IMG/VR virus record: IMGVR_UViG_3300046000_006661
Span: 1-64,000 of that record
Strand: one strand, 5' to 3'
DNA length: 64,000 bases
From: a virus
Shown: one piece after another, positions 6,979-60,680 of the stretch
How positions within the stretch are numbered: the stretch's first letter is position 1
Layout of the letters: each line of letters starts with the position of its first letter
The notes under the pieces: model-generated
What the model was told of the DNA's origin: nothing
The model's input: only the letters and a program-made list of their open reading frames with translations
Database searches by the model: none
Program-made: the position numbers and the translations under genes

Positions 6979-6987
6979 TAATGTTTG

Positions 6988-10300: not shown

Positions 10301-10325
10301 TTATATTAAAGATTTTATTAATTAA
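7320..10325 (+). CDS. Tail fibre protein with tandem repeats
   Basis: This 1001-residue protein is a fibrous tail protein. Residues 150-470 contain repeats of the form FYxxSNPSGFITGVDLS, separated by VVRPSETG linkers, and several short heptad-like segments (SGSLQNQITNLNNQTG, TLQTNINNLSG) that suit trimeric coiled coils. Residues 545-860 contain five copies of the fibre motif xVGIGTTxP followed by a short beta strand, as found in long phage fibres with beta-helical or knitted shafts. The C-terminus (about 900-1001) is a beta-rich tip. I see no S74 intramolecular chaperone motif, so trimerisation may need another factor. The role is host adsorption. Confidence 0.85.
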   Translation: MSEFTINVVQDPSTIIDINNSNQTVSLNILEDQYNSIQVNDNSNDVLLNPSVFYNGINIVYLSGVSGELLHNTFGDLQGGSTGQYYHLSSGQYFNLITGAVVRPNETGSFLTIGSADLRYVGLAGDQTISGAKAFVLRPSVNGTGVMLSGEAVSVNTGELTGAFYPLNSNPSNYITGSVVRPSETGVFYPTSNPSGYITGVDLSAYVTGNVVRPSETGNFITASQTGAFYAASNPSGFITGVNLSNYSTIAFSTGISGSLQNQITNLNNQTGNYYPTSNPSGFITGVDLSFSGNYYTKSESESRYVNTTGAETILGDKTFHDKVYINNLYVTGLETIVNTTNTNIASNFIMLNLTGGAVDGGLFFVTGAGLTGINDSGAILGFDHSDKFKFGIGTRASDLSVLDTIASVEEMTGISGSLQTQISTLSNATGSYVLNSQTGAFYSVSNPSGFITGVDLSTYATITNLAATGSTLQTNINNLSGVYATISNLNSTGSSLDSKISLLSGSSVLLYGDQTISGVKTFTTGVNISGNLTVDTNTLFVDSVNNRVGIGTTTPQSTFMLDVNGQVVIRGDNYLNGSLREFGANAYKLSKAGDSWINGGNVGIGTTTPAAPLHINTSLSGVAVRIGQDGTVGRLEFGNVNVALTRISNQLALQGFDGFTFGTSSGERMRIDSSGNVGIGTSSLIGKLDVAGSLTTTTPSNVLVLSRPYNPGVAFHTAASFRLSNPNTNVNNTRLDIALQQGNSVSPVTPDTTVMTLLGDGRVGIGTTSPLTPLHTYTAGNNSLTIEAGAGDSQVMLRSAGSLKFLFGYEDSDDGFRIYNYGTSATSLFAKSTNGYIGIGTVAPNERLTVSGNANISGNISANNLVYNTGNQTVSGIKNFQSVPLVSGEEVYYKKNVVYFTGNNFTPDANLARTFEYVLTGLAGASATLNAPINMNNGENIVIKIKQSPSGSNNIIFNSNYKFPGGVIPSLTLTPSKADIYTALKIDSNFYSTYIKDFIN
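7800..8200 (+). repeat. Tandem repeats inside the fibre gene
   Basis: Four imperfect units encode variants of SNPSG(Y/F)ITGVDLS with linkers such as VVRPSETG. A further copy lies near 8640-8700. Units differ at many third codon positions, so they are old duplications or are kept by protein selection. Confidence 0.75.
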
Positions 10326-10330
10326 AAAAT

Positions 10331-13300: not shown

Positions 13301-14200
13301 TTTACAACTATGAGCGGATTAAGCAGAAATAGAGTTTGTAGATTTGATATTTCTTCAGCTTCAGGAGGAGTTCTTGAATCTTACAATCCACTGATTTTAA
13401 ATGGCGGGATTAGAAAACTTTTAGTTTCGGGAGATAGTTTATACGCTGGGGGAACATTTGGTCAAGTTGGAGCAGCTGCAAATAATGTTTATGCTTATGC
13501 TGCTGCTTTTAATGCGAATAATGCTAATCATATTACGACTTTTCGTCCTTTTTCTGGCTATACTGTTCCTACAACTTATTGGTTTGCAAATCGAGCCGCA
13601 GGAGGAACAGATGGAGTTACATCTTTTCACATGCATCCTAGTGGATTATTTATAGGTGGAGATTTTATATCAGTGGGGGGTTCTGGTGATGATGTTAGTC
13701 CAAGAGGAGTGTTTTTAGTTAACCCCGCCAGTGGAAACATATTAAGAAATTATGGAGGATTCGGTCAGCAAAGTATTTTTAAAGAAAGAATGCCTTTTGG
13801 TGCGGGAGATAGTCATCCTGGAAATATATGGGATATAAAAAGTACTGGAGATATGTTAATAGTTGGAGGTGAATTTGCCGATGTGCCAGAATATAGATAT
13901 TCAAATTCCGCTTCTCCTCAAAACAGTTTCATTACTTTAAAAGATAAAATAACAGGAGTAAATATTGGCAATTTTGATTTTACAATAGATTCAGAATTGC
14001 CAGCATCTTTAAATGATGCGTTGAATAATACAAATTCAAATAGCTCGAACTTGTTTGTATATGATGCATCTTTTAATGAAGATAAAATATTTTTCCATGG
14101 ATTATTTGGCGACATGAAAGATCCAAATTTTAGATGTTCTATTGCCGCTATGGATTATAGCGGAAAGATTGATAAGAATTTTCAAGGTTTTGGAGTGTAA
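10331..14200 (+). CDS. Large beta-propeller tail protein (Delta-60/DUF5122-like repeats)
   Basis: The 1289 residues are built from about 16 repeats with the pattern (F/Y)xGG(S/D/T)Fxx(V/M)xGxxRNxxAxxN, for example GGSFTSVLGVARNRIARI and GGDFTTMSGLSRNRVCRF. This is the blade signature of Delta-60 (DUF5122) beta-propellers; sixteen blades suggest two propellers in a row. Blades are spaced about 60-80 residues apart, with longer loops at about 440-520 and 800-880. No enzyme motif or signal peptide is visible. It follows the fibre gene by 5 bases. Propellers in this position probably bind a host surface polymer or support the fibre; that role is inferred. Confidence 0.8.
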   Translation: MFLPFSNLDKNTTTENLLYPNGIVYASLVKDNILYLGGSFNSLCEVYPSYATLDNELNIYPAEVDTRTYGTRNNKGVVDTTVDQYGNRYLLGGFSSVNNLSQVPFPDGRISQSPANFLFGKIGLAQITPSGLNTGLGLSLGGGTSLRNIQSIGSGIFFMHGGNNIAVFTGNGAFNAASYNYGLYNQTVMKFNLLENPANNYKWALRADQLWTQNFSNATKTDGPPIDYFADTGNFYPNKTGIWIAGQFTTAAGVVCNRLVCLDYVSGTYITGLTIANGPNGNIDQILKYGDKIYIMGPFTTFSGVSRNRMAAINLPSMSLSPFNPNANSTIRQMATGANGMYLVGDFTTINGSGGNYQNICKVDYESGLLITGFRPKFNFGNNPCGSIAEFGDKVIINSTTPNNRSWTYKIDNRPTSGPLIPDYHNPIAFPIVIDNISGLTTYTGLGYGAGTTNVYQGDQSSIAGFNVIKKIDNKIHIFAKQGGAFVQKVPRNNAFAVDLNTNRITEWNPNLQMINAATSAYSLANDTQAVYCMHLDTGDNTITIGGRFNTVNESNNASKIRNSIAIVDAISGGLTTNLNVNLGVNYDVIAIEKSGSTLFLGGNFISGTVPNRYNNFIGLDINTNAPTHGRNFEINNNLFGLNSNKTSSSKVSCMKRKDNLLYVGGTFDTVSGNNRYGIFCLNIQNNTITDFNLNLDRGDVKAMDIDPSTNTLYIGGGFRSVLGQERNYGAAINLNNTGLLEWDPELSKEPTNLKVTPSGVVICGSFSNAGERRAGLAFFSIESGSLLKRNVHLMGSTYGGVYTTEIHKKTLYANGSIISATIPQSVGSQNFTPHAFQMRYNLESGHIVTGYVNDRDGAPLCIRGGGQVLSTFLESGFMYMGGSFTNVQNMSPSTNTNSTVTRNRVAWFDLNNQMISGIDYNVNSDVRAIKRKDNFLYIGGSFTSVLGVARNRIARINLNTNTLDAWNPNSNSTIYDFQFSGDKLFAGGDFTTMSGLSRNRVCRFDISSASGGVLESYNPLILNGGIRKLLVSGDSLYAGGTFGQVGAAANNVYAYAAAFNANNANHITTFRPFSGYTVPTTYWFANRAAGGTDGVTSFHMHPSGLFIGGDFISVGGSGDDVSPRGVFLVNPASGNILRNYGGFGQQSIFKERMPFGAGDSHPGNIWDIKSTGDMLIVGGEFADVPEYRYSNSASPQNSFITLKDKITGVNIGNFDFTIDSELPASLNDALNNTNSNSSNLFVYDASFNEDKIFFHGLFGDMKDPNFRCSIAAMDYSGKIDKNFQGFGV

Positions 14201-40244: not shown

Positions 40245-41405
40245 TCAAGCAAACGCTCCAACTATATCAAAAGAACTGATGTATGTTGATGGTTTTGGAT
40301 ATGGCGAAACTTTTAATCCAGATGCGTCTGTAACCTCTACGGAGTAATTTGCGCTAAACTCTATTCTATTGTTTACTGTCATAGAATGCGAAAAAGAATT
40401 TATTTTCGCGCCACGAATCTCAAATTTTCCAGAAGCAGTTTGTTGTTGATCTGCAAATATAATATCGAAGTCGTACGTCTCTTCCGCTCTATTAAGCAGA
40501 TGAAGATTACCGCTAGAAAATTGATCAACTACAGCGCTAACGTCAACAGATGCTCTTATTGGCAACTGAAGCTTTCGTCCATATACGTGATTACTGCCTA
40601 AACCATATAGATCCGTTCTTTCAAATGGGACAGAAAGATTGACAGACTGAATGATTGCTCCACTAACGAGAACCGCTCCACCCATCTGTAGATTTTCGAG
40701 TTGAGCTGATACATTTTGAGGAGATACCACTTTTGGTCTAAATATATTGAGTTCATTGTTATTAAATTGGTTGGAATATCCTGATAATGATGTTTTTAAA
40801 TTACTGAAGTTCAAAAATCCTGATCCGCTATTGTTTCCTGAAGCAAGATTGATTGCTGGAATACTAACATTTGAACCTGTCAAATTTGTCATTTGAAGAT
40901 TTGACGCGCTGAACGAAGCAGATACCGTGGGCAATCCACCTACTTGAAAACCAACAGAATAGTTATTCAAAAAGCAGTTACCAATCGCTGCGCATGTCAT
41001 TCCACTGAAATTAGTTCGCGGCGAAACTCCCGTAAAACTCTGCAATAAATCTTGCCCGTTTTGATCATTTATAATCAAATAAAAATTCTGATCGCGAGTA
41101 GACATTCCAGATGCTATTGATCTTGCTGATCCACTTGCGGGTGATAGTCCAAGCAGATACTCGTTTACTAAATGCGGCGAAAAAAGATAATCAACATTAA
41201 AAGAAACATTCGGCGCTCTAACAATTGAATCTAATGCATATTGTTGCGAGCCTACTTGTTTTGATGTTTGTCTATCCACCGAAACAGAAATCTCTGATCC
41301 TTGAACTAGCGGCACAAAATAACCGCTCTGCTCGGTAGTAGTCCAAGCAGGAGATGGTGATGTTGCTAGTATTGCTGAATTGCTTTTGAATATGAATTTG
41401 CTCAT
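40245..41405 (-). CDS. Tail-tube-like structural protein (paralogue with in-frame YISSFDIVGAFA tail)
   Basis: This 386-residue beta-rich protein resembles the major tail proteins at 42346-43134 and 58389-59504. They share NCFLNNYSVGFQVGGLPTVS-type sequence ((F/Y)L(T/N)(D/N/E)YS..(V/A)VG..P(T/S)), the QVGSQQYALDSIVRAPNVSF-like start and a VEVTD-like end. Its last residues, KPSTYISSFDIVGAFA, match the tail that a -1 frameshift would add to the 58389-59504 protein. Here the tail is encoded in frame. It is ATGA-coupled to a tail-tip-like gene and is probably a distal or specialised tube component. Confidence 0.75.
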   Translation of the reverse strand: MSKFIFKSNSAILATSPSPAWTTTEQSGYFVPLVQGSEISVSVDRQTSKQVGSQQYALDSIVRAPNVSFNVDYLFSPHLVNEYLLGLSPASGSARSIASGMSTRDQNFYLIINDQNGQDLLQSFTGVSPRTNFSGMTCAAIGNCFLNNYSVGFQVGGLPTVSASFSASNLQMTNLTGSNVSIPAINLASGNNSGSGFLNFSNLKTSLSGYSNQFNNNELNIFRPKVVSPQNVSAQLENLQMGGAVLVSGAIIQSVNLSVPFERTDLYGLGSNHVYGRKLQLPIRASVDVSAVVDQFSSGNLHLLNRAEETYDFDIIFADQQQTASGKFEIRGAKINSFSHSMTVNNRIEFSANYSVEVTDASGLKVSPYPKPSTYISSFDIVGAFA

Positions 41406-42349
41406 TGATCGTTAGGAACTATCCCAAGTGGATCTTCCACTATTTCAATTTCCAATGTGTGTGAATTGTTGTAGTTCCAAGTGTGGCTCCACGATGGACA
41501 ATAGTATACCTTCAATCTATTGTAAACAGAAGGAGGTGTATGATAGAATCTTCTATAGCCGAATTTATTTTCCAAAAAGTGGAAGATGGCTTTAGCTTTT
41601 TGATCATCAATATTTTCAAACTTATACTGCCAATTGATTAAAGAAATATTACGCGAAGAATTTATCTTTTGGATAAAAGAGTTTTTGAAATCTACAGTGT
41701 CAACGCGCATTTTAACATCGTTTTGAACGCCAACATCTGGCTCGAAAAAGAATGACTGACTCCATTTTGCTGTAGAACCTGTTGGACCATCTAAAGAAGT
41801 GCTAGATGCAACATGATCTTCGGTGCAGTAATAAAAATTGTTTAATTTATTGCTATTTACCCCAGAATAAAGTATGTCATACTTTTTATAGGATTGAGCC
41901 GCAGACCAAGTTTTGTAGCTGGTATTGATATAAGACATTCCAGACCAATTAAGAATAGAAGAAGCCTGAAATACTTCTAGCGAAAATGCAACCTCATAAT
42001 GTTGCTTGTTTATGTGATTAATAGCATAGTTGTCGCAAACTCCACTTACCTTCTTATAGAAATCAGAAGGATCGTCAAATTCGATAAACTCTTGACCGCT
42101 TTTTAATTCTAAAAATCTCACCAACTGTTGAGCTTTGTTTTCGGGCAGATCGTATCTCAAATCAAACTTGGCGTTCAAGTTATTGACTGACATTGGAATC
42201 ATGTTATAGAATCCATTTTGTGTTTCATATAAACTGTTTCGCGAAGTGATTGACACTTTCGATCCGTATGCTGGAAACTCTGAGCTTAATGAAGCTAGTG
42301 GGCTAACGCCACTAATGTTACCTGTTGTTCTATCGTAAAAGCTGCTCAT
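41402..42349 (-). CDS. Minor tail protein, gpM-like (two copies of the domain)
   Basis: Two stretches follow the phage minor tail (lambda M/PF05939-like) pattern: FDLRYDLPENKAQQLVRFLE then SGQEFIEFDDP, and WQYKFENIDDQKAKAIFHF then FGYRRFYHTPPSVYN, each leading to an end like YEVAFSLEVFQASS and LEIEIVEDPLGI. In the family, one such domain joins the tail tube to the tip. Two copies in one chain suggest a duplicated ring component. Genes on both sides overlap as ATGA, and the tape measure gene lies upstream, as expected for the tail-tip region. Confidence 0.65.
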   Translation of the reverse strand: MSSFYDRTTGNISGVSPLASLSSEFPAYGSKVSITSRNSLYETQNGFYNMIPMSVNNLNAKFDLRYDLPENKAQQLVRFLELKSGQEFIEFDDPSDFYKKVSGVCDNYAINHINKQHYEVAFSLEVFQASSILNWSGMSYINTSYKTWSAAQSYKKYDILYSGVNSNKLNNFYYCTEDHVASSTSLDGPTGSTAKWSQSFFFEPDVGVQNDVKMRVDTVDFKNSFIQKINSSRNISLINWQYKFENIDDQKAKAIFHFLENKFGYRRFYHTPPSVYNRLKVYYCPSWSHTWNYNNSHTLEIEIVEDPLGIVPNDQ

Positions 42350-43135: not shown

Positions 43136-46100
43136 TTATCTTCTTAAAGAGCCTCCAATTCTTTTCTCGTCGTTGATGATCTGCAATACTGCGTCTTTGA
43201 TTTGACGAGCGAGTTGTTGACGGCTTGCAGATGGATCTTGCGAAGTTTCTTGAGAGGTTTGACCAGATGGAGCCACGTTGATTGTTATGTTTCCAGTTGA
43301 GCCAGATGCGCCAATAAGTTCATCAAGTTTTGCCAAGAGTTTTTCGTTGAGTTCCTTGCTTGTCTCTTCTGAAGTGATGGAAGTTCCACCAGAGTTCATT
43401 GATTGAAGGTTTGGCGCTCCAATGCTTTGAACAGCAGAGCGATTCATCACAAACTCTCCACCAGAAAGCATAGCTGGAACTGTGTCGATACCAGACCTAG
43501 ATGGAATCATTCCACCAGTAGCGCTTCCTTTGGGTTTTCGCGGTAAGAGTATAAATTCTGGATTCTCTACTAGCGGAGTCATATTTGGATCAGATAATCC
43601 CTCTGGAAATAAATTGCCACCACTCATACTTGTAGCTGCATCAAAAACAACTCCAGCAGGCGTTCTTGCTGTCCCTCTAGGTATGGAAGCATTTGCAGAA
43701 AATGGCATGGCTCCAGAAACTGGCTCAGCCCTTAACGCGCCAATTCCGCCGCTTTTATCAATGTAAGAAGCAAAATTCTGATCTGATTGATAAAGATCCG
43801 ATAATTGTTTGGCATTTCCGATTTGAGACAGTTTGAATTTATTTACAGCACCCGCAAAATCTCCAGAAAACATCTTTCCAGCACCACTAAATAAATTTGA
43901 TAAGCCTCCAACTTGTTGATTTCCTACTTTCCCACCTTTAATTGCTCCAGAAAATGCAGTGCCAAATTTTTGAAAAAATCCAGCATCCTTTGGCAGATTG
44001 CCGAGAGCGGCTTTAGCTCCAGAGCTAGCAGCATTCCCAATACCTCCTAATGCAGCGCTTCCAACCAACATCAATAATTGAGATGTTAAAGCTTTTTTCT
44101 TTTCTTTCTCTTGTTTCTTGGCTTCTATTTCAGCATTATACTGTTGCAGATACAAATCAAAAGCTTGCTGTTTTGCTGATTGAGTGGCTTCGAACTGTGG
44201 CGAATTTCTCATTCCAGAAACAGACAACATTGGACTTTCTGGCTCAAGAGCAATAGATTGGTAGCCATTTTCATTTGTCATTCTATCAAACACTCCCGAT
44301 GTACCACTTTGAGTTGCAAAGCTTAATAAATCTCTTTTGCCTAAAATAGCTCCAGTATTATAAGTTCCTGGGGTATAGAAGCCAGCATTGCCGCCTTGTA
44401 TTTTTTTGGCTTTTGATCGTCTTTCTTCATATATATTTTGTATTAATTTATTATATGGATTCTTTTCAGAATCGACCATGCCGCCATTAGCGTAACCATT
44501 CAATGTTCCGTTGTTGATTGCCTCTAAGAATTTTGGACCGTATTTCGATACAGCTTTCTTATTTACGACATATTCGCCGCCCATAAGCATTGCTGGAACA
44601 TCGTCTTTTGATCCAGAACCACCAGTTACTTTGCCGCCAGAAGCGAATCCAAGCATTCCAGATAAGAAATCAATAAATCCGCCACCACCAGCCGCTTCCT
44701 CTCCTTTTCCTTTAGGTTTTCCACTAACAATCCGATCAACTAATCTGCTAGTCATTCTTTGGTTTATAGTTTTTACCAACTCATAAGCGGCAGAACGGAA
44801 TCCTTCTTTGAGAGAAACAGTTCCTTCAATTGCAGAGTTTATTGCACCGCTAATTCCATCAGAAAACATTTTTGGAATGTCTTTGCCTAATAGATAAGCA
44901 AATTGCTCGCCATCTATCTGCATTTGCAAAAATGCATTTTGCATTCCTTCTGCGAATGTTGAAGGAGATCCCTTTAAATCGTCTAGTTGCCGCTGCAATT
45001 GAGAATTTTCTGATTGTCCTATGCTTTGAATTTCACCATTAATTTGCTTAATTGCATCTTCTCTTTCTCTAAGATCTTCTTTTGCTTTAGCAGCGTCTTC
45101 GCCACTTCTTATTGTATTTGCGGCTTGAGCTAATTTTTGTGCTAAACTTGCAGCGGCTTCATCTTGTAGTGTAAGTTCTTCTGTGGCATATTTTAATGCA
45201 GAATTATATATCTCCGCAGAGTCTGTCAATTTAGATAGTTCTTCGGCTTTTTTAAATTTTTCTTCTTCAGAAACTTTTGTAGTTAAAACTGTTGTAGTTG
45301 CTAATCCTGTATCTGTAGCTGGCCTGTAATCAGCTATTGATGATGTTCTACCAGTTGGATTGCCAAATTCTTTCATAAATGAAGGTTTGGCTCCACCAGC
45401 TTTACTCATCCGATCTGTAGCACTTCCAACTGGTCCCAATCTAAAGTTAGATGCCAAAGGATTATTAGGAATAACCTCTACCAGTTTTTTTAAAGCAATT
45501 GTGTTTTCTTTAATTTGTTCATTATTGTCTCCTAATGCTAATATATTTTCTTCGAGCTTAGCATTTCTCACGAACTCGGCTTTAGCATCTAAGATATTTC
45601 TTTCGCGTTCGCTTTGTAATTCATTTTGGAATTTAAGTCTTTCGAGTCTGTTTTCCTCATCTCTTCTTTCAAACGGAGAAATTCCATTAGTCTTAGATAA
45701 TTGAGCAAGCTTTACGTCAATGTCTGCATTTTTTAATTGCGATGCATATCCAACTTGTGTAGATTGATTCGATATGTCAGTTGCTCTTGCTGACATAAGT
45801 TGCGCGTATCTTTCAGACGCTTTATTGTTTTGTTCTTGGATTTTGTTTTTGGCAATTTCAAGATTTTTCGATTTTTCTTTTTCATCGTTTCCGTCTTGAA
45901 CGGCTCGATTTGTTCTTTCTTGCAAATCAAGAGCGTTCAATATTGCTTTAGCTAATTGCTCAGCAGCATAAATATTTTCTTTTAAATCAGTTCCCTGTAA
46001 TTGGGCTTTTGCAAAATCAATCGCAGCTTGCTGTTGATTATTACTGCTTAATATCGCTTGCGCTTCTTTATTATCTTTAAGATTTTTTAAAGTTGCTCTT

Positions 46101-49100
46101 ACTTTATCTTCTGCATTTGAGCCTTTAAACAGACCCTTGTCCATGAATTCTCCCGCCAATTTGTTTAGCTCTTCTTGGATTGTTTTTTGAGCTTCTAATT
46201 CGGCAGTTTGTTTTTCTAGCGCTGCTTGAGCTTCCAATGTTTTGATTGTTCTATTAGATGCTGAAAGATTTAAATCAGCTTCTATACCTGCTACAAGAAG
46301 TGAAGAATCATAACGCTTGTCTGCAATTTGCTGCTCTATCGTTCTAATAGACTCTCTTTCAAGCTTTTCTCGCTTGATAGCTTTAATTGTTTCTTGTAAT
46401 TCTCTTGGTGATCTAGCTGTCGCGCTAATATTTTCTTCCGCAATTGCTTTTTCTTGATCTTTCGCAAGAGATGTAGTTTTATTTATATATTCATTTTGTA
46501 TTTCTTCAGAAATGCCTTCTTTTTTTAAAGATTTAATTAAATTTAATAAAATTGTTGATTCTGGCGTTTGTCTACTTTGAGCATCTTTAAAAGAATTATA
46601 CTCAAAAGAACCCTTTTTAAAATCTTTGCCTTCATACAAATACATAGTATCAGCTATTGACTTGGCTGATTGAATTTCTTCATAACTTGCGCTACCTAAT
46701 ACTTTTGCATTATCTTCGCCTATTTGATTTAGTAAATTTTGAGGGCTTAATGTCGATGGTATTTCAGACATCATTTTATTTAACTCATTGATATAATTTT
46801 TAACTTGACCGCCATTAAGCTGCACTTCGCCTAATTCATTTTTATCTCCCTGTTTAGCGTAATTAAGTAAAAGTTCATCAATTGTTTTTTGAGGAATTCC
46901 AACACCTCTTGCGTTTGCCATAGATGTATATAATTCTTGGTTTAGTGTATCGCCAAGACCTTCTGTTAAATCACTATATCTTAATGAAGTCATGTCAATT
47001 TTTTGACCCATAGCTTTCGCTACTACTTGAAAGGCGGGAGCCATTAGTTTTTGTCCCGTGGTTTGTTCGCCATCGGATGTTAATTTTTGAGCCTTGCTTC
47101 CTATAGCCAAAACCGAAGCTCTAGCCTCTTCTTCAAATCTTTTCTTTATTGCTGGATTAATATTGTCTAAATTTACAGAAGCTTTACTAGCCGCTTCTGC
47201 TAATCTGCCAGTTGCTTCAGCAGCGCTCTTCATGCCTTGATTATTGCTATCTACATATTTTATAGCTTCCTTAAAAGCCACATACAAACCAACTCCTACT
47301 GCGGCAACACCACCCAATTTTCCAATGACTCTACCAAATCCTTTTTCTGCACCACCAAAAGCTTGCGATAATCCCTGACCAGCAAAAACTACTGTTGTTA
47401 CTGAGCTAGCAACTGCACCGAAACTATTAAATAATTTCGCCATACCGCTTGTCGCGCCTTCTGTAGCTCCAGTTAAGGCGCTCATTGCTCCTTGAACTGC
47501 AAAAATAGTTCCAAGCATATCTCTATTACCACCAGGAGTAGTGCTAGTGTCTCTTACTTTACCCATTGGGTTAGTAATAGATCTTTTTGCGCTTTGTGTG
47601 ACTGCTGCTTGTAAATTTGCTGCGTTTTGATTAGCTTCTGCTTTTTTATTTGCTGTGTCTGTTGCAAGCGTTTTAGATTGGATTGCTATTTGCTTACGCT
47701 CTTCTAATGTTTGTCGAAGAGGTTGTTGTGCAGCGGCGACAGCTTTCTGCTGTTGAGCTTCTTGCATTTGCATATTAGTTATTGCCGCTTGCGCTTGTGG
47801 CGATTTCTTCCCCGCTGCTTGTGCTGCTGCAAGATTAGCCTGAATCTGTTTTAAAAGATCCTCTTCTTTTTTTAACATATCCCTTTCTATCTTGCTTCGT
47901 TTTTTTAAACTTTCAGAAGTTTGCTTTAAGCTTTTCTCTTGATTATCATATTCATCTTGAATTTGTTTCAAGTTATCAGTCAATCCTTGATTAATTTTAA
48001 CTGTTGCTTCTGAAGGCTTCAAACCAACATAAGGAGATATATCTGCACCAGCTGCCCCAGCAGCAAAATTCGGCACAAACCCACCAGCAGCACCATACAT
48101 CATTGGATTAGCTCCTTCTTTTCTTGCGCGGCTAATACCTTGGAATCCGCCAGCAGGTTCATCGCGACGATTGGCAACCATCAAACCCATAGGGTTTGCC
48201 GCATTCTTTAGCGCAGGACTCTTATCAATATAAATCTGTGAAGCAGGAACACCAGCAGCCATTTCGCGACCTACTGCCGCTTGAAGTGGATTGGCAAAGT
48301 TGGGAAGGAAGCCGCCAGCAGCTCCGCCTTCAATATTTCTGCGAGCTTGTTCTTTTATTTGTTTATGTGCGATTCTAGCTCTCTTAACCAATCCTTGAAT
48401 CATTGGAGTTGGATCATTTATATGACTTCCTGACCTTAATGGAATACCAGCATCTAAATCTATTAAATCTTTAAGAATTGATTGAAATGCTCCCATCTCT
48501 CTTGTAGAAACAGAAACGCCAATTCCTCTATTCATTAAGTCTTGAAATCCAGCTTTTGCCGCAGGTATAACCTGCTCTAAAGACTTTCCAACTAGGTCTT
48601 GTTCAATTGGAGAAATTCCGTTTGGCAATACAGCACCAAGAAACTGATCAAAACCAAGAGTTTTTGCAATACCAGTCAAAGGCTTCAGCTTTTCTAAAAG
48701 CCTTTTTGCATTTTCTGATGCACGATTAGGTGTTCCTCCAGCAAAATTAGGAATAAAACCACCAGCAGCCCTGGTGTTGAAAGGCACAACGCCTTTAAAA
48801 ACCGCTGGCTTAGCTTTCGGGATAGAAGAAACCAATTCTCTCAAAATATAAGGTCCAATATTAAATCCTCTTTGCTCTGATTCCACGTAAGCGTTTTGGC
48901 TTTGTATTATTTTAGAAAATTCAGAAGCAGAAGGTCTCAATTGTCCATCAAGGTATTTATATAAAATTTCTTTTTCTGCTGGATGTAAAGCTACGTCCCA
49001 CGAATCTTTATAAGAAGCATAAGCTTGTGGAAACTCATTCTTTCTCATTACTAATTTTTGTTTGCCAGTAAATCCTCCTAAAAGAGCGGTGTTGCCATAA

Positions 49101-52100
49101 AAGCCACCTTTATGGTCGGTCATTCTTGCTTTATCTTGTCCATGGTCATCAGCATAACCCCTTCTGCCAGCTAGTGCTGCTTCTGTAGCAACCTGCTTTC
49201 CATGTTCGCTTTTGGGATTTAATTTTAAAAATTCTCCCTTTTGGATATAAGCATCGCTTTTCTTCCCATCGTAATCCTTTAATGATTTTTGGCCTCCTAA
49301 AAGTTTGTATTTCAAGTATTCTTCCGAATCAGCATCTATGCTATGGCCTTCTCCACCTCCTGACTCGCGAGTCCCACTAATAACATTTTTGTTATTATAA
49401 AATGCTGTATTTATTCTTTGGGCTGCGAATTTAGCGAATTTTTCTCTTAATTTGTCATTTGTTAAAAAAGTTTTTATCGTATATTTTGCATTATCAAGAT
49501 CTTTTCGTGTTTTAATGAGTCTTTCTGGTTCTTCGACAAATTTAGATACCATTGGCCAAACTTTATCTAAATCCAGTTTGCCTTTTAAAGCGGAAGAAAT
49601 TACTCCTTGGGGTAATTGAGATCCAAGATTTTTTGAAGAGGATATGGCAAATTTTGCAGCATTAAAAGCATCCATTACCCCGAAATTCGGCACAAACCCA
49701 CCAGCAGCATTAGGAATATAACCACGCGCAAAAGTATCTACTATAGAACTAATTCCAATGCTTAAACTACCGCCGCGCAAATCTTCGATAAATTCTTTGG
49801 GACCACTTTGCGTTTTGTTATGTAGACCTTTAATTTCATTAATCAACAAAGAAAAAACATCTTTACCCGAAACCCTCTTAGCATTTATCTCCCTACCATT
49901 TTTTCCCCTATAACTAAAAGAGTCAATATTCGTATTTTTTACATTGCTGTTTTTTCTGTACCAAAGCTGCGGATACATCCCCTTTAAAATTTCTTCAAAG
50001 CCTACTCGTTGTCCTCCTTGTAAATTAGCCTCTAAATCATCTAATCTTGTTTTATCTTGAGCTAGAAGTATAGTAGAATACAACTTCATACCAGACCTTT
50101 TTGATAACGCCCCCAAGTGATTAAACATTCTTAAACCATCGCCTTTTTGTAGAGACCTTATATAATCTATATTTATATAGTTTTTTAGTTTGCTTCCCGT
50201 TGATTTTGGATCGTATGATAATGGATCGTATAAAGATGCATCCAGTTGTTTTAGTGAGTATGAAGCGTAGCTTCTGCTTTTTGGATCTGTTGCTGTTTTG
50301 GATTTTTTACCAGTAACATTTGATATTCGTTTGTTGAGACCAGGAATATATCCACTTAGAGCGTCAGGCGCTGTTGTTGGTTTTCTTCCATACGCAATGG
50401 ATTGGTATTGAGGTGGAATTGCGGCTACATAATTCGGCACAAACCCATCAGCAGCACCATACGTCATCGGATCAGCTCCTTCTTTTATTGCTCTGTTGAT
50501 TCCTTGAAATCCACCCGCTGGTTCGTCACGACGATTTGCTACCATTAAACCCATTGGGTTTGCCGCATTTTTTAATGTGGGGCTTTTGTCAACATAAATC
50601 TGCGAAGCTGGAATACCAGCAGACATTTCTCTATTCACTGCATCTTGCAATGGATTAGCGAAATTAGGAATAAAACCACCAAAAGCATTTTTTGCTTGTA
50701 CTGCTTTTTGCGCTTCTGAAAGATTAAATGCGCCCTTTGCTTTTAAAATTTTAAGCGCTCTAGCGCTGTATTCAGGATCATTGAATACTTTTTTAATTAT
50801 TCCTTGAACTTGACCAGAACTTTCAAAATTAGCTTCTCCACCTCTTTTTGCCTCTCCTCTTTCAGCAGTTATTCCAAATATTTTACTAATACCTTCTGCA
50901 TTCGAAAAATCAAATGGCCTATTCTGTTCTTTACCAGAAAAAATTCCAGTAGATTTTAAATTTCCAGTCTTTAAATCTACTGCATCCCTTAAAGAATTAA
51001 CCGCTACTTTACCAGCAGCTTCAAATAAATCTCCCTGTGCAGCAGTTGGTAATAATTGTTGTCCTGGTGTTTTTGCTATTTTTCTTATTGTTCCAACCCA
51101 ATCTTCATTTTGAGCAAAAAGTTTACCATATAATTTATAAGCAAGATCGACAATTCCTTGTGCAAATGTATCACTTATATCTTCCTCTACCCCTTCAATG
51201 TCTCTACCAGATGGAGTATTTGTTTTTTGAATTCCAGAAAGTTGAATGTATTTATTTTTGTCTATTGGGGGTGCATCTTTATAGTTAAAGAACGGAATAT
51301 CAGCAATCTTCATTGTTGTATTTAAAAGACCCTTTTTCTTGCCAAATCGTGGAGAAATGAGAGCAATTCCACCAAGATTCTGGGCATTTAATTCATACGA
51401 ACCCTTGTCTGCTATTTTTGCTTGTTTAATATCCGCATTAACAGCCGATACAGCTCTGCTAGACTTCATTACCCTTTCAACTTGAGATGGTGCTGCCTGA
51501 GTTCCATCAGGAAACCAATAACTTCTGTATGGTCTACCAAATTCATCTTTCCCTGGTCTTATGTAATTTTCAATATTGCCAGCTTCAACATATTTTCTTA
51601 TCTCGTCATCTATGGCTTTTGGTCGTGGCGCTTCAGCAAAGTTTGGAATAAAGCCTCCAGCACTATTATCAATTATAGAATTAATTTTTCTTTCAGAAGC
51701 TCTTTGAGAAGTTCTTTGTTCAAAATAAGAACTATTATTAAGTTTCGTATCATAGGGAACAACTAATCCTAATTTTCCTGATACGTTCTCGTCAAATGGA
51801 TTTTTAATGTAGTTATTTGAAAGAAAAGAGTTTGCATATTTTTTAACAATTTCAAAAAGATTTTGTCTTTCCGTTGTTTTTACTTCATTATTGTCAGTTA
51901 AATCGAAAAATGAATTTTTACCCAAAATTGGTTTACCGAGTAATTGAGATGCGTCTATCTCTCCAATAACTCCTTGAACTTTGTTTTGTAATTTTATCCA
52001 TTTATCTTTATTTCCCTTTGTATCTCCTTTTGCATATTTTATATTTCTGATCGACGTTTCAATTGAAGAGACAGCTGATGGATCTGCACCTGCTTCTAAC

Positions 52101-54310
52101 CATTCTTTTTTATATCGTTCCAAAGCATCTTCATTAATTTTCTTGCCAGAGCTAACTCCGAGTTTAGTGAAAATATAATCATCTTCTTTTCTTGTTTTTG
52201 ACTGTCCTTTTCCAAGTACTAGCCCCGCTTCGTTTTGATAGGATTTAATTGCTTTTTTTTGTCTAAAGACGCTAATTATAGCTTTAAATTGATCAGATAG
52301 ATCTGCATTTTCTCCATTTCTTAAAGCTCCTGATTTAGATTTTTTAAAAGAATCTACAGTCGTAAATGGAGTTTCAATGATTTCTGGCTTTATTGTATTT
52401 GCAAAATTTGGAACCAATCCTCCAGCTGCATTGATTTTCTTTGCTCCCGATGGCAACCCCATAGATTGAACCATACGTCTATTAAACACAGCAGTGCCAC
52501 CACTTCCATTGAAATTCGGCACAACATACTCGCCAGTATGTGCAACCATCGTCCCTTTTTTACCGCCTCCAAAATTAAAGTTTGGCATGACAACTGGTCT
52601 ATCACCAGAACGAGCGCCACCTACTCCTTGTTTGATTGCCTTGCTTTCTTTTGCAACTGCTGGCATATAACCGCCAGCGCTATTGCCAATGCGCAAACCA
52701 GAATCTTTAGCTCTACCTCCTACATTATAAAGAGGCGCTGCTAGTCCAGAGGAAATATTAGCGCTTCTTCTAAGAAGAGCTTCTTGCTCAACCAATGCTC
52801 CAGTAATTAATCTCAATTGAGCTGCTCTGTTGCCTTCTAATGCAAACAGTTGCTGTTGCAGATTGACGTTCTTGGATAATATTTGAGAAATTGCTCCCTC
52901 GACATTTTGAACTTCTTTAGCTGCCTTACCAACTCCAAAGAATGCCTTCAAGCTAGCAAATCCAAACTGTACTAAATCTTTTGAAAGTTTAAGAATAATG
53001 CCGCCAAATAAAGCCAATCCTGGACCAGCTAAAAAGCTTCCAAGACCTTTAACAAGTCCACGAACCAAATTTCCTAAACCGCTTTCTTCGCCTAAAACTT
53101 TTTGAATGCCTTCTAGCAGACCATTGAAAAAGCCTAAAACATTTTTCAGGCTATCTGTTACGCCAATTTCACCAAGTTTCGCGCCAAGTTGCTCAGCACT
53201 TACAGCAACTTTATTTAATAATGCGGCTAGCGTTTGATTAAGAACTGCATTTTTCTGATACGCCTTGCTTCCAGCTTCACCCATAGCCTTCAAAGCGCCA
53301 GTAGTAACGGATGCTTCATCAGAAAGGTCGTTTAATGCAGCTAGCAATTTATCCAATTGATATACACCGCCTAGTTTTTTGGCAATATCTGCTTGCTCAA
53401 TTTGAGAAAAACTGCCCATTTTTTTAGCCAAGTTTTCTAATATTTTTAACGCTGGCAATACTTCTCCTTGAAGATCTGTAACTCCTACACGCATGTCTTG
53501 CAAATCGGACAAAACAGCTTTATCTTGTATTCTGCTAAAAATTGTTTTAAAAGCGTTACCGATAACAGCGCCACCTCTAGCGGTTTTTTCTTGAACTGCT
53601 GTAATAACAGCCGCTAATTCTTCAAACGAAACTCCAGCTAAATTAGCAACTGAGGCAGATCGCTTGAGACCCTCAATAATATCTCTTTCCGATACTGAAT
53701 ATTTTTGAGCAGCAGCAACAACTTTATTGAGAATTTCTGCTGTGGTGATTCCAGAACTCTTGAATGAGTTAAATGCAGCAGTCAAACCTTCAACAGATTG
53801 TGCGGCATCTAGTCCAGAAAGCCGCGAAAGAATCAAAGCATCGTTTAATCTAGCAAGTGTATCTTCTGCGTTCAAACCTTGACGAGCCAATTCTAATGCA
53901 CCTTTAGCAACTTCGTCAAACGATTTGCCAGTATTTTTTGCCACGTTAAAAATATCTTGACCAAATTTGTCAAGTTCTGAGCCTGTCTTATTTAAGACGG
54001 TGCTAATTTCTACTAGACTTTTTTCTACTTTAATAGTGCTAGTCAAAAGTCCAGACATCGCCTTAGATACGCCAGCAATAATACCAGCTGAAGCTCCGAA
54101 CGCCAAAACACGCGCATTTGCTGCTGCCATGGATTTTGAGAACTCATCTGCCTGACCAGTAATCCTACCCAATGGTTGGCTCAATGCGTTAATTTGCTTT
54201 GAGTTTGTTCCCAAGTTAATCTGCGAAGAACTACCTACACGCTTCATTGCAGCGGCGATACTTTGCTCTAATCCGACTTGAGTAACTTGTAATTGAATAG
54301 ACTGTGACAT
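43136..54310 (-). CDS. Tape measure protein, 3724 residues, with GGFIPNFA-type repeats and inserted domains
   Basis: Residues 60-280 match the phage tape measure start (MAAANARVLAFGASAGIIAG, later RGGAVIGNAFKTIFSRIQDK). From about 577 to 2085 the chain has about ten copies of (A/F)GG(F/L/Y)(I/V/L)PNF(A/G), separating globular segments. Two of these (near 799-811, FFDLTDNNEVKTT; near 1131-1156, RPFDFS to EAKRGG) look like PD-(D/E)XK folds. A 75-residue module (DAVNREMSAGIPASQIYVDK type) occurs twice, at about 1214-1290 and 2002-2080. Later parts are helical, with two hydrophobic membrane-like stretches (GLALFGGIILK; GVAAVGVGLYVAF). The C-terminus has two DDVPAMLMGGEYVVNKKAV-type elements near 3230 and 3610. 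It sets tail length; the inserts may be delivered or bind the tail tip. Confidence 0.9.
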   Translation of the reverse strand: MSQSIQLQVTQVGLEQSIAAAMKRVGSSSQINLGTNSKQINALSQPLGRITGQADEFSKSMAAANARVLAFGASAGIIAGVSKAMSGLLTSTIKVEKSLVEISTVLNKTGSELDKFGQDIFNVAKNTGKSFDEVAKGALELARQGLNAEDTLARLNDALILSRLSGLDAAQSVEGLTAAFNSFKSSGITTAEILNKVVAAAQKYSVSERDIIEGLKRSASVANLAGVSFEELAAVITAVQEKTARGGAVIGNAFKTIFSRIQDKAVLSDLQDMRVGVTDLQGEVLPALKILENLAKKMGSFSQIEQADIAKKLGGVYQLDKLLAALNDLSDEASVTTGALKAMGEAGSKAYQKNAVLNQTLAALLNKVAVSAEQLGAKLGEIGVTDSLKNVLGFFNGLLEGIQKVLGEESGLGNLVRGLVKGLGSFLAGPGLALFGGIILKLSKDLVQFGFASLKAFFGVGKAAKEVQNVEGAISQILSKNVNLQQQLFALEGNRAAQLRLITGALVEQEALLRRSANISSGLAAPLYNVGGRAKDSGLRIGNSAGGYMPAVAKESKAIKQGVGGARSGDRPVVMPNFNFGGGKKGTMVAHTGEYVVPNFNGSGGTAVFNRRMVQSMGLPSGAKKINAAGGLVPNFANTIKPEIIETPFTTVDSFKKSKSGALRNGENADLSDQFKAIISVFRQKKAIKSYQNEAGLVLGKGQSKTRKEDDYIFTKLGVSSGKKINEDALERYKKEWLEAGADPSAVSSIETSIRNIKYAKGDTKGNKDKWIKLQNKVQGVIGEIDASQLLGKPILGKNSFFDLTDNNEVKTTERQNLFEIVKKYANSFLSNNYIKNPFDENVSGKLGLVVPYDTKLNNSSYFEQRTSQRASERKINSIIDNSAGGFIPNFAEAPRPKAIDDEIRKYVEAGNIENYIRPGKDEFGRPYRSYWFPDGTQAAPSQVERVMKSSRAVSAVNADIKQAKIADKGSYELNAQNLGGIALISPRFGKKKGLLNTTMKIADIPFFNYKDAPPIDKNKYIQLSGIQKTNTPSGRDIEGVEEDISDTFAQGIVDLAYKLYGKLFAQNEDWVGTIRKIAKTPGQQLLPTAAQGDLFEAAGKVAVNSLRDAVDLKTGNLKSTGIFSGKEQNRPFDFSNAEGISKIFGITAERGEAKRGGEANFESSGQVQGIIKKVFNDPEYSARALKILKAKGAFNLSEAQKAVQAKNAFGGFIPNFANPLQDAVNREMSAGIPASQIYVDKSPTLKNAANPMGLMVANRRDEPAGGFQGINRAIKEGADPMTYGAADGFVPNYVAAIPPQYQSIAYGRKPTTAPDALSGYIPGLNKRISNVTGKKSKTATDPKSRSYASYSLKQLDASLYDPLSYDPKSTGSKLKNYINIDYIRSLQKGDGLRMFNHLGALSKRSGMKLYSTILLAQDKTRLDDLEANLQGGQRVGFEEILKGMYPQLWYRKNSNVKNTNIDSFSYRGKNGREINAKRVSGKDVFSLLINEIKGLHNKTQSGPKEFIEDLRGGSLSIGISSIVDTFARGYIPNAAGGFVPNFGVMDAFNAAKFAISSSKNLGSQLPQGVISSALKGKLDLDKVWPMVSKFVEEPERLIKTRKDLDNAKYTIKTFLTNDKLREKFAKFAAQRINTAFYNNKNVISGTRESGGGEGHSIDADSEEYLKYKLLGGQKSLKDYDGKKSDAYIQKGEFLKLNPKSEHGKQVATEAALAGRRGYADDHGQDKARMTDHKGGFYGNTALLGGFTGKQKLVMRKNEFPQAYASYKDSWDVALHPAEKEILYKYLDGQLRPSASEFSKIIQSQNAYVESEQRGFNIGPYILRELVSSIPKAKPAVFKGVVPFNTRAAGGFIPNFAGGTPNRASENAKRLLEKLKPLTGIAKTLGFDQFLGAVLPNGISPIEQDLVGKSLEQVIPAAKAGFQDLMNRGIGVSVSTREMGAFQSILKDLIDLDAGIPLRSGSHINDPTPMIQGLVKRARIAHKQIKEQARRNIEGGAAGGFLPNFANPLQAAVGREMAAGVPASQIYIDKSPALKNAANPMGLMVANRRDEPAGGFQGISRARKEGANPMMYGAAGGFVPNFAAGAAGADISPYVGLKPSEATVKINQGLTDNLKQIQDEYDNQEKSLKQTSESLKKRSKIERDMLKKEEDLLKQIQANLAAAQAAGKKSPQAQAAITNMQMQEAQQQKAVAAAQQPLRQTLEERKQIAIQSKTLATDTANKKAEANQNAANLQAAVTQSAKRSITNPMGKVRDTSTTPGGNRDMLGTIFAVQGAMSALTGATEGATSGMAKLFNSFGAVASSVTTVVFAGQGLSQAFGGAEKGFGRVIGKLGGVAAVGVGLYVAFKEAIKYVDSNNQGMKSAAEATGRLAEAASKASVNLDNINPAIKKRFEEEARASVLAIGSKAQKLTSDGEQTTGQKLMAPAFQVVAKAMGQKIDMTSLRYSDLTEGLGDTLNQELYTSMANARGVGIPQKTIDELLLNYAKQGDKNELGEVQLNGGQVKNYINELNKMMSEIPSTLSPQNLLNQIGEDNAKVLGSASYEEIQSAKSIADTMYLYEGKDFKKGSFEYNSFKDAQSRQTPESTILLNLIKSLKKEGISEEIQNEYINKTTSLAKDQEKAIAEENISATARSPRELQETIKAIKREKLERESIRTIEQQIADKRYDSSLLVAGIEADLNLSASNRTIKTLEAQAALEKQTAELEAQKTIQEELNKLAGEFMDKGLFKGSNAEDKVRATLKNLKDNKEAQAILSSNNQQQAAIDFAKAQLQGTDLKENIYAAEQLAKAILNALDLQERTNRAVQDGNDEKEKSKNLEIAKNKIQEQNNKASERYAQLMSARATDISNQSTQVGYASQLKNADIDVKLAQLSKTNGISPFERRDEENRLERLKFQNELQSERERNILDAKAEFVRNAKLEENILALGDNNEQIKENTIALKKLVEVIPNNPLASNFRLGPVGSATDRMSKAGGAKPSFMKEFGNPTGRTSSIADYRPATDTGLATTTVLTTKVSEEEKFKKAEELSKLTDSAEIYNSALKYATEELTLQDEAAASLAQKLAQAANTIRSGEDAAKAKEDLREREDAIKQINGEIQSIGQSENSQLQRQLDDLKGSPSTFAEGMQNAFLQMQIDGEQFAYLLGKDIPKMFSDGISGAINSAIEGTVSLKEGFRSAAYELVKTINQRMTSRLVDRIVSGKPKGKGEEAAGGGGFIDFLSGMLGFASGGKVTGGSGSKDDVPAMLMGGEYVVNKKAVSKYGPKFLEAINNGTLNGYANGGMVDSEKNPYNKLIQNIYEERRSKAKKIQGGNAGFYTPGTYNTGAILGKRDLLSFATQSGTSGVFDRMTNENGYQSIALEPESPMLSVSGMRNSPQFEATQSAKQQAFDLYLQQYNAEIEAKKQEKEKKKALTSQLLMLVGSAALGGIGNAASSGAKAALGNLPKDAGFFQKFGTAFSGAIKGGKVGNQQVGGLSNLFSGAGKMFSGDFAGAVNKFKLSQIGNAKQLSDLYQSDQNFASYIDKSGGIGALRAEPVSGAMPFSANASIPRGTARTPAGVVFDAATSMSGGNLFPEGLSDPNMTPLVENPEFILLPRKPKGSATGGMIPSRSGIDTVPAMLSGGEFVMNRSAVQSIGAPNLQSMNSGGTSITSEETSKELNEKLLAKLDELIGASGSTGNITINVAPSGQTSQETSQDPSASRQQLARQIKDAVLQIINDEKRIGGSLRR
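48066..48306 (-). repeat. Tape measure duplicated module, copy A (240 bp)
   Basis: The module encodes AVGREMAAGVPASQIYIDKS, then NPMGLMVANRRDEPAGGFQG, bounded on each side by a PNF motif. It is very similar at protein level to copy B but differs at many synonymous sites, so the duplication is old and the protein sequence has been kept. Confidence 0.85.
50432..50671 (-). repeat. Tape measure duplicated module, copy B (240 bp)
   Basis: This is the second copy: AVNREMSAGIPASQIYVDKS, then NPMGLMVANRRDEPAGGFQG, ending in the motif DGFVPNYVA on one side and GGFIPNFAN on the other. It lies about 2.1 kb from copy A, with the inserted domains between them. Confidence 0.85.
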
Positions 54311-58388: not shown

Positions 58389-59504
58389 ATGGCAAGAAAT
58401 CGAATCATTTATCAATCGGAAGGCGTATATATCAGCAAAGAAGCTACCTCTACTGGCAGCGGTGATCACGCCCAGCTTTCTCGCGTACAATCCGCGAACT
58501 ACAATTTCAACATTGCTCGTCAGGATGTTAACCAATACGGTGAGTTGGCTCGTATCGACTCTATCGTTCTGGAATCTCCTACTGTGTCGATGGATATGAG
58601 CTACTACATCACTGATGGTCGAAATGAAGCCGCTCTTGGTTTCTATGTTCCCACTGGCACTCAAACTCAGTCTCAGTTCCCATCTGGTCACATTGTAGAC
58701 GGAAGTGGAAGAAATCTTTATATCGTAACCAGTAACGAAGGTACCGACCTTAACAACTTTGATGGCGCATCTAGCTTGAGTGGTAAAGGTTGCATCGGCG
58801 TTGGCAATGCTTATCTTACCGATTACTCAATTGAGTTGGCTGTTGGCAGCATTCCTACCGCAACTGTTAGCTTCGAAGGCTCCAACATGAATGCATTCAC
58901 ATTCAGCGGAACTAATTCAGGAACTTCTGTTGCGATCAATCAAGAATCTGGAACTGCACTTAATTCTGTTATTCGCTTGAAAGAACCCGATAGCTTTACT
59001 GGAGCTGCTGTGGTTACTGCTCTTCGTCCTGGTGACGTTACCATTAACTTTGGCACTTGGGGAACTGGCGGTTTGATTTCTAAACTCGGTGGCACTGATG
59101 GTGCGCACATTCAAAGCGCAAGCTTGTCTCTTCCTCTTGGTAGAACTCCAATTGAGCGACTTGGTTCTAAATTCGCTTTTGCGCGTGTTGTTGACTTCCC
59201 AGTTACCGCTACTCTTACTTTGAATGGCGTACAAAACGAAGTTGCTGGTGGCAACTTGGTTGATTTGGTCAATGCAAATCCCAAGCAAGACATCACAATT
59301 TCGGTCAAGAAGCCAGGAACTAACACTAATGAGCTTGCTGTTGTATACGTTATCAAACGTGCGCAGCTTGATTCTGCTAGTGTTTCTAGCTCGATTGGTT
59401 CAAACAAAACTGCTGACTTTACATTCACAACTCAAATCGGTGGTGCTAACGACACAGACAACGGTATTCAGATGAGCGGGAGCTTTACAACAGCCCCTTT
59501 TTAA
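58389..59504 (+). CDS. Tail tube-like major structural protein (short form; frameshift form ends at 59572)
   Basis: This beta-rich protein of 371 residues shares the tail tube paralogue core YLTDYSIELAVGSIPTATVS with the proteins at 40245-41405 and 42346-43134. The short form ends SFTTAPF-stop (59502-59504). The last codons contain CCCTTTT (59495-59501), read as C-CCT-TTT, a canonical X-XXY-YYZ slippery site. A -1 shift adds 23 residues ending PTYISSFDIVGALS at stop 59570-59572. That tail matches the in-frame tail PSTYISSFDIVGAFA of the 40245-41405 paralogue. The major tube subunit is probably the short form, with a minor long form in the tail; the ratio is unknown. Confidence 0.85.
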   Translation: MARNRIIYQSEGVYISKEATSTGSGDHAQLSRVQSANYNFNIARQDVNQYGELARIDSIVLESPTVSMDMSYYITDGRNEAALGFYVPTGTQTQSQFPSGHIVDGSGRNLYIVTSNEGTDLNNFDGASSLSGKGCIGVGNAYLTDYSIELAVGSIPTATVSFEGSNMNAFTFSGTNSGTSVAINQESGTALNSVIRLKEPDSFTGAAVVTALRPGDVTINFGTWGTGGLISKLGGTDGAHIQSASLSLPLGRTPIERLGSKFAFARVVDFPVTATLTLNGVQNEVAGGNLVDLVNANPKQDITISVKKPGTNTNELAVVYVIKRAQLDSASVSSSIGSNKTADFTFTTQIGGANDTDNGIQMSGSFTTAPF

Positions 59505-59572
59505 GTAGCCCTTCTGAACCTCCTGCTCCAACTTATATTAGTTCATTTGATATTGTTGGTGCGCTTTCATAA
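59495..59572 (+). other. Programmed -1 ribosomal frameshift signal and extension reading frame
   Basis: The slippery heptamer CCCTTTT occupies 59495-59501; the zero-frame stop TAA follows at 59502. The -1 frame runs CCC-TTT-TTA-AGT-AGC to TAA at 59570-59572. A stem can form 4 nt downstream: 59506-59518 (TAGCCCTTCTGAA) pairs exactly with 59624-59636 (TTCAGAAGGGCTA). Part of 59516-59523 could instead pair with the terminator's left arm, giving competing folds. The conserved paralogue tail supports real use; expression has not been shown. Confidence 0.75.
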
Positions 59573-59593
59573 AAATTAAAAAAAAAAAAAAAA

Positions 59594-59622
59594 GGGGGTT
59601 CTGAAAACAGAACCTCCTTTTT
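59594..59622 (+). terminator. Rho-independent terminator after the tail tube gene
   Basis: GGGGGTTCTG (59594-59603), loop AAAA, and CAGAACCTCC (59608-59617) form a 10-bp stem with one G.T pair, followed by five T. It lies inside the 13-bp inverted repeat 59506-59518/59624-59636, so termination would remove the distal frameshift stem arm; readthrough transcripts would keep it. Confidence 0.75.
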
Positions 59623-59664
59623 ATTCAGAAGGGCTAAAAAAACAAAACAAAACAAAATAAAAAT

Positions 59665-60645
59665 ATGCCAAGATACATAGATTACGAAACATTTATAACT
59701 CCTAGTGGAGCCTTACCAGTTGCTCCAATTCAACCATACGAATATGCTTCCATTTACAATGGAATTAGCGATTTATTAATAAACGATGGAATAATTACAT
59801 TTACTGGCTTGCCAACTGGTATTGTTGTAGCTACACCAGAATCAAGCACAGCGCCATTTGATCAAGTTTTTGTTGATCTTGAGGATGCTGACGATTTCGT
59901 AACACTAAATTTAAATGGAAACTACTGGAGCGGCAGTGCTATTGATAGTGGCGGCGAAGGCATAATATGTTCATATACTTCTGGAGGATTTTGGGCCATG
60001 GCACTTTATGATGGCGTAGAGCTGTATAGTATTATCCATACTGGAGATGGCGACCCTAATTCCTCTATATTGGATATTTCATTTAATCCGCTACAATCAG
60101 AATTACTAGAAAATCCTATTAATTTCGCTCCAGGACAAGAGGCTCCCATTAATTTAGTTCCAGGAGCTACTTATCAATTTGATGGTGACTCGTCCAGTAT
60201 TACTGTTCCGATTCAATTTAATCAAACTAGAAATGCTAGTTGGTATCTAGCACAAGTCAATAGATTCGGAGGCGTTTCTTATGGGCAATTAAATATTTCT
60301 GGAGTGGCATTTACAGGTGGCAGTTATCAAACTGTTACAATTCCATCGAAATCTGCTGGTGCTACACAGCTATATAATGTAAAATGGCTCAATGGTCAAT
60401 TAACACTAACATCAGGAGCTGGACAAATGGCTCCAGACCCATTCGCAAATTTTAATTATGGAGTAGGAAATAATGTCTCCGCAATAATTCCAAACGAGAT
60501 AATGAGCAGCTATAGCATTATATCTAGTAATACTGGGAATAGTGGAACAGCTTCTATTCAAATCAATAATGCGCAACAATTTAGCGACCTGCCCTTGCCG
60601 CTTAGAAAGTTGCATGTTGTCTTTGACATTGCCGAGGATCTATAA
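59665..60645 (+). CDS. Hypothetical structural protein, 326 residues
   Basis: This beta-rich, Ser/Gly/Asn-rich protein has little helix (YASIYNGISDLLINDGIITF, SYTSGGFWAMALYDGVELYS, SSITVPIQFNQTRNASWYLA). It carries no enzyme motif or signal peptide. It follows the tail tube terminator and precedes a strong terminator, so it may be expressed as its own unit. A virion role such as tail decoration or an adhesin is likely from composition, but no family was recognised. Confidence 0.55.
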   Translation: MPRYIDYETFITPSGALPVAPIQPYEYASIYNGISDLLINDGIITFTGLPTGIVVATPESSTAPFDQVFVDLEDADDFVTLNLNGNYWSGSAIDSGGEGIICSYTSGGFWAMALYDGVELYSIIHTGDGDPNSSILDISFNPLQSELLENPINFAPGQEAPINLVPGATYQFDGDSSSITVPIQFNQTRNASWYLAQVNRFGGVSYGQLNISGVAFTGGSYQTVTIPSKSAGATQLYNVKWLNGQLTLTSGAGQMAPDPFANFNYGVGNNVSAIIPNEIMSSYSIISSNTGNSGTASIQINNAQQFSDLPLPLRKLHVVFDIAEDL

Positions 60646-60651
60646 ACCACT

Positions 60652-60680
60652 AAAAAGGCGCTGTGAAAACAGCGCCTTTT
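60652..60680. terminator. Bidirectional rho-independent terminator
   Basis: AAAAGGCGCTGT (60653-60664), loop GAAA, and ACAGCGCCTTTT (60669-60680) make a 12-bp perfect stem with A- and T-runs on both sides. It lies between convergent genes ending at 60645 (+) and 60702 (-), stopping both transcripts. Confidence 0.9.

Follow-up and report, generated by a model that had tools for sequence, protein, structure and literature searches.

Tail-tube proteins extended by translational frameshifting are already known. In SPP1 the short gp17.1 and the frameshifted, extended gp17.1* occur in the tube at a ratio of 3:1, and the extension lies on the outside and is dispensable (PMC8718954); the shift is +1 (PMC9022992). 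In the lactococcal 936 phages, a programmed frameshift producing MTP-TpeX puts a host-binding function on some of the tube subunits (PMC6669499). The Tsh proteins of the Listeria phages PSA, A118 and A500 arise by a +1 shift at CCC_UGA, on the final sense codon of the major tail gene, just ahead of its stop (PMC5009743). At the tail tip, T5 has p140, which forms a pb6-like ring and touches the fibre collar p132 with its C terminus, in an assembly that includes the L-shaped fibre; p140/p132 have been called a landmark of T5-like phages (PMC10038345).

The viral DNA analyzed here, a stretch of 64,000 nucleotides (IMG/VR record IMGVR_UViG_3300046000_006661, positions 1 to 64,000; hereafter the window, or W), resembles these systems in part. 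As in SPP1, a tail-tube protein would have a short form and a frameshifted form with a C-terminal extension, and as in the Listeria Tsh genes the shift falls on the sense codon that precedes the stop in the major tail gene. However, SPP1 adds an FN3 domain by a +1 shift whereas W and the other records with the shift add a peptide of 20-26 residues by a -1 shift, and Listeria Tsh is shifted +1 at CCC_UGA whereas W is shifted -1 at U_UUU_UAA with a downstream stem. A preliminary description of this DNA had cited PSA as a precedent for programmed frameshifting of a major tail protein; the tail gene of PSA uses +1 and not -1 shifting (PMC5009743). The extension of 936 TpeX is the carbohydrate-binding domain itself, whereas W fuses only a short tag and the proposed adhesin is encoded by a separate gene. 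The 20-26 residues are not an Ig-like, FN3 or carbohydrate-binding domain, a trait of SPP1 and 936 that is not required of the wider class. The case of W is that of a peptide instead of a domain, shared with a tip protein and added by -1 slippage at a stop-adjacent U_UUU_UAA; the short swappable docking tag would be its new element. The features concerned are the following:

58389-59504, plus strand: zero-frame gene for the major tail tube protein (371 aa ORF; stop TAA at 59502-59504)
59498-59504, plus strand: shift-site core U_UUU_UAA, invariant in 6/6 members
59501-59572, plus strand: -1 frame extension, 23 codons (LSSPSEPPAPTYISSFDIVGALS), then a stop at 59570-59572
59506-59518, plus strand: 5' arm of the outer stem, 13 exact pairs with 59624-59636, also coding for SPSE in the -1 frame
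59586-59625, plus strand: terminator-like hairpin inside the outer stem, in its 105-nt loop (18-nt arms 59586-59603 and 59608-59625, 4-nt loop)
59624-59636, plus strand: 3' arm of the outer stem, non-coding
59665-60645, plus strand: downstream gene for the proposed adhesin docking on the tag (326 aa; family not in Pfam or PHROGs)
60653-60680, plus strand: terminator past the downstream gene (20-nt core GGCGCTGTGAAAACAGCGCC at 60657-60676)
40245-41405, minus strand: p140-like tip paralogue of the tail-tube protein (386 aa), following a minor tail gene at 41402-42349 (PF05939)
40248-40292, minus strand: C-terminal tag encoded in frame by the tip paralogue, translating as PSTYISSFDIVGAFA (model residues 372-386, disordered)
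43136-54310, minus strand: tape measure protein, context of the tail module (3724 aa; phrog_4211 E 1.2e-47, PF10145 E 6.4e-31)

The 3' end of the tail-tube gene reads GCC CCT TTT TAA, so that CCCTTTT at 59495-59501 is read C-CCT-TTT in the zero frame. On re-checking, all coordinates of the preliminary description (the ORF, CCCTTTT, TAA, the -1 stop, the 13-bp repeat and the paralogue) were borne out. The tail-tube protein and the tip paralogue are homologues (28% identity, E 5e-22), and through the model of the latter (T5 pb6 fold, Z ~20) the former is predicted to have the tail-tube fold. The peptide shared by the tube tail and the tip paralogue occurs in just two places within the window. 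A tblastn search of the INPHARED phage records gave no match; the tube protein, its paralogue and the downstream gene retrieved nothing above cut-off from PHROGs and Pfam, and a search of the PDB by sequence with the tube profile gave no tail-tube match, only weak PDZ/protease matches.

Protein searches of IMG/VR retrieved about 75 tail-tube relatives, plus three in bacterial MAG contigs, two of which are Flavobacteriales; this is a hint only of the host. Four relatives (L001, L002, L004 and L005) have the same 3' cassette as W, and a fifth, L104, was found by searching with the downstream gene. This set of six frameshift records of uncultured phages comes from different metagenomes, three of the sequences being close, and the tube proteins of the other five are from 94% down to 54% identical to that of W. 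All six retain the TAA of the zero frame, the -1 tail and a stem rich in G+C. The remaining relatives, including L003 and L006 (87% identity), show a normal gene end, mostly with a terminator, and no such tail. A relaxed DNA pattern scan recovered the five known viral-contig members and 26 other sites, none of which ends a long zero-frame ORF.

The -1 tails are LSSPSEPPAPTYISSFDIVGALS in W, LSSPSEPPAPTYISSFDIVGAFA in L001, LISPSEPPEPPTPTYINPFDIVGAFA in L002, LISPSEPSYISSFDIVGALT in L004, LISPSEPSFYAEFGIYGAFAPSV in L005 and LSSPSETLFDEFSVYGAFVPES in L104; their length varies from 20 to 26 aa and the indels are multiples of three. Over the six records pN/pS is below 1 in the -1 frame only (0.50; zero frame 1.41, +1 frame 2.01), and the out-of-frame extension is thus conserved as a protein. 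Readthrough of the TAA as the source of the tail was rejected given the zero-frame value, and also because L004 has a second in-frame stop directly after the first (TAATAA), which excludes simple readthrough into its tail. The -1 ORF is unlikely to be translated separately, as the open -1 stretch of W has no ATG, GTG or TTG before the tail. The programmed -1 shift adding a tail to the tail-tube protein, which the preliminary description had proposed, is supported by conservation in six phages and by selection on the -1 frame. The shift very probably makes a long tube subunit, and a minor long subunit would be present in virions.

Concerning the shift site, the bases at 59495-59497 are variable: CCC in W, L001, L002 and L005, ACC in L004 and AGT in L104. 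A heptamer on which two tRNAs could slip is found in the first four and is broken in L004 (ACCTTTT, read A CCT TTT) and L104 (AGTTTTT, within TCA GTT TTT TAA). The canonical X_XXY_YYZ heptamer, taken for the signal in the preliminary description, is therefore not what is conserved; U_UUU_UAA at the stop is. The same description had called for a comparison of homologues, in which the tail proved to be conserved and the CCCTTTT heptamer did not. As only U_UUU_UAA is invariant, the site points to slippage of tRNA-Phe beside the stop codon. All six cases are accounted for by one tRNA-Phe passing from UUU to UUU, and tandem slippage in L104 would leave the P-site tRNA almost unpaired.

A stable structure follows the shift site a few nucleotides downstream. 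The 13-bp exact stem 59506-59518/59624-59636, reported to start 4 nt past the heptamer, was re-found as such, and in all six records the stem starts 4-6 nt after the heptamer position. The 151-nt element of W has a folding energy of -54.8 kcal/mol (z = -8.7), a stability that none of 200 shuffles reached, and z ranged from -7.2 to -9.3 in the five frameshift sequences folded. Over the six sequences 92% of the cells of the outer stem are paired and 9 of the 13 pairs are invariant, with one compensatory change; its covariation is weak and does not exceed that of shuffles. The outer stem is nonetheless supported by its 3' arm, conserved though non-coding, and by the G+C-rich stem being confined to the frameshift loci among 74 loci checked. 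The inner hairpin has changed in sequence in L005 and L104 and has kept full pairing. This terminator-like hairpin precedes the 3' arm, and only transcripts extending beyond it can therefore form the outer stem. The 9-mer GAACCTCCT is found both beside the 5' arm (59516-59524) and in the inner hairpin (59610-59618), and an alternative, antiterminator-like fold is therefore possible. A search of Rfam with the element gave nothing near the gathering score.

The downstream family adjoins all six frameshift genes and was found in none of some 70 fetched tail-tube relatives without the cassette. Of 15 records searched for it, four have it, all with the cassette. The core GGCGCTGTGAAAACAGCGCC lies after the downstream gene in W and L001 and directly after the tail-tube gene in the cassette-less L003 and L006, a placement by which tail, stem, hairpin and downstream gene together form a single insertion that separates the tube gene from its former terminator. 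The cassette is gained or lost as a unit, with at least four gains or losses on the tail-tube tree, all forced by supported branches (in a quick tree with SH-aLRT support only). Between W and L002 the downstream proteins are about 40% identical and the tube proteins 93%; such fast evolution is as expected for a host-contact protein, which the downstream product may be. Its model is poor (pTM 0.41), with no recognizable domain.

The model of the tip paralogue (pTM 0.82) matches T5-type duplicated tail tubes over residues 6-374 (Z ~20). The alignment with pb6 reaches residue 373-374 of the tip model, at which point the Ig-like domain comes next in pb6 (PMC8718954). Like T5 p140, the paralogue is predicted to have a duplicated tail-tube fold without the Ig-like domain, and it is encoded with tip genes. 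Another match of the model is to a 293-residue chain of the T5 tail tip, by our own identification probably p140. As with p140, the tip paralogue is a duplicate of the tube protein at the tip, and the T5 protein contacts the fibre anchor through its C terminus; the C terminus of the paralogue may do likewise. Across the relatives, the type of the tag correlates with the adjacent fibre gene. Unlike p140/p132, the fibre link in the W group appears to be a swappable C-terminal peptide.

The core of the tip relatives is conserved and their C-terminal peptide is exchangeable, being of the PSTYISSFDIVGAFA type, LWxxIxxxW, or absent. A fibre gene comes next in 14 of 14 distinct sequences with the LWxxIxxxW tag and in none of the eight distinct tip proteins that carry the YISSFDIVGAFA (FDI) tag (four) or are untagged (four). 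Tag exchange is thus tied to the fibre gene, with p about 3e-6 (1 in 319,770) in Fisher's exact test, which ignores relatedness. The genes after the LW-tagged tip genes lie within 90 nt and are of the M(N/S/D)LGP type; among three such neighbours scanned, Gp34_trimer was matched by the first and BppL_N by another, and the third gave just a weak beta-roll model. The FDI tag has at least two origins on the tip tree. Both genes are available for four phages. W and G005 bear matching tags on tube and tip, with no fibre gene after the tip gene. The tubes of G001 and G016 carry the FDI tag, and their tips have the LW tag and a fibre of their own. The tail that the preliminary description called paralogue-matching is therefore so in W and G005, and not in the other two, whose tip tag differs. 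The FDI tip tag was also found in L120, L121 and L136, which are fragments without the tail-tube gene and so provide no test of the link.

Three further observations concern the tip relatives. The tip tag linker APEPPTYISSFDIVGAFA of L121 (L121:1648-2820) resembles the linker SEPPAPTYISSFDIVGAFA of the tube -1 tail, a likeness that suggests copying between tip and tube genes. Distant tip relatives (L151-L182, e.g. L153:2336-3443) end in YINESINP, followed by the family MSKRI...LPxATQLNxxDQFIFY, which could be a further tag-fibre pairing, the same pattern in more distant phages. The relative at G013:C1:48257-49312 (L089) was reported with one internal TAG in the matched stretch.

We propose, at a probability of roughly 0.6 for the explanation as a whole, that some of the ribosomes reaching the end of the tail-tube gene slip by -1 on U_UUU_UAA, tRNA-Phe shifting from UUU to UUU with the stop codon in the A site or about to enter it, and that the downstream stem is the likely stimulator. 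Slipped ribosomes would add a C-terminal tag of 20-26 residues, giving a tube made mostly of short subunits with a tagged minority. Judging from the pb6-like fold, the tag would exit the tube where T5 pb6 carries its outward Ig-like domain. Its role would be to dock an adhesin that another gene encodes, most likely 59665-60645; to this part of the proposal we give slightly better than even odds. In W and G005 the tip paralogue would have swapped the usual fibre tag for the peptide of the tube, so that tip and shaft carry the same partner. Of this scheme, the common layout, the coding selection on the -1 frame, the linkage to the downstream gene and the tie between tag exchange and fibre genes are observed; how efficiently ribosomes shift, the entry of the long form into virions, what the stem does and which protein is the partner are inferred.

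W has a further fibre gene (7320-10325, BppL_N), so that the partner of the tag could be a different protein. This fibre was rejected as an explanation of the FDI tag because partial matches to it are also present in G001, whose tip carries the LW tag. Far from the tail operon, the plus-strand region 7320-14200 forms a second host-contact module: a small ORF (6985-7323) precedes this 1001-aa BppL_N-type fibre gene, after which comes the gene for a DUF5122 beta-propeller protein of 1289 aa.

Other explanations of the tail and its structure were weighed against this proposal. The homopolymer-rich site (CCCCTTTTT) raises the thought that a frameshift mutation left the -1 tail behind as a relic, or that the sequence was misassembled there; yet the tail is common to six records from different metagenomes, at 94% down to 54% identity, with purifying selection and in-frame indels, and such an origin is hardly credible. 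The arrangement is neither chance nor a sequencing error. Alternatively, the extra base could come from RNA polymerase and not the ribosome: one U added to the T5 run gives an identical protein product, and the run is kept (as T6) in L104 despite different codons. The run is, however, just 5-6 T long, shorter than those known to support efficient polymerase slippage, and the structure conserved at frameshift spacing would be without a role, which makes this origin highly improbable. The outer stem and inner hairpin could instead be a transcription attenuator of the downstream gene, any frameshifting being independent of them. The inner hairpin is indeed terminator-like and covarying, and as 59516-59524 repeats 59610-59618, competition between the region of the 5' arm and the terminator stem is conceivable; but an attenuator alone is unlikely when the outer stem lies 4-6 nt past the heptamer position in 6/6 records and is present only where the -1 tail exists.

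The function of the tag can also be read differently. With the frameshift real, the tag could be an assembly signal that marks a special place in the tube, for instance the ring beside the tip or the collar; a common assembly partner would then lie behind the shared peptide. In W and G005 the same peptide type is present both on the tube subunits and on the ring protein of the tip, and T5 p140 is itself a tube-like tip ring beside pb6 (PMC10038345). Against this, the type of the tip tag tracks the fibre gene (14/14 versus 0/8), tube and tip carry different tags in G001 and G016, and the close relatives L003 and L006, 87% identical, do without the cassette, which is therefore dispensable for assembly. 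We give the assembly signal only a small chance and favour docking of an adhesin.

A broader reading, which we put forward tentatively and at somewhat less than even odds, is that a small code of exchangeable C-terminal peptides on proteins of the tail-tube fold chooses the fibre, with one tag mounted by frameshifting on a minority of the shaft subunits. As the stem would form only on transcripts that carry the adhesin gene, the tag would be coupled to its partner. If the proposal is true, a short plug frameshifted onto a few tube subunits would be a cheap route to a second receptor-binding protein, and the plug would move together with the adhesin gene. Natural -1 frameshifting would be extended to a stop-adjacent U_UUU_UAA site. 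The attachment of tip fibres in T5-like phages would be readable from a short C-terminal peptide, which would help to predict which host-binding parts and tails form pairs.
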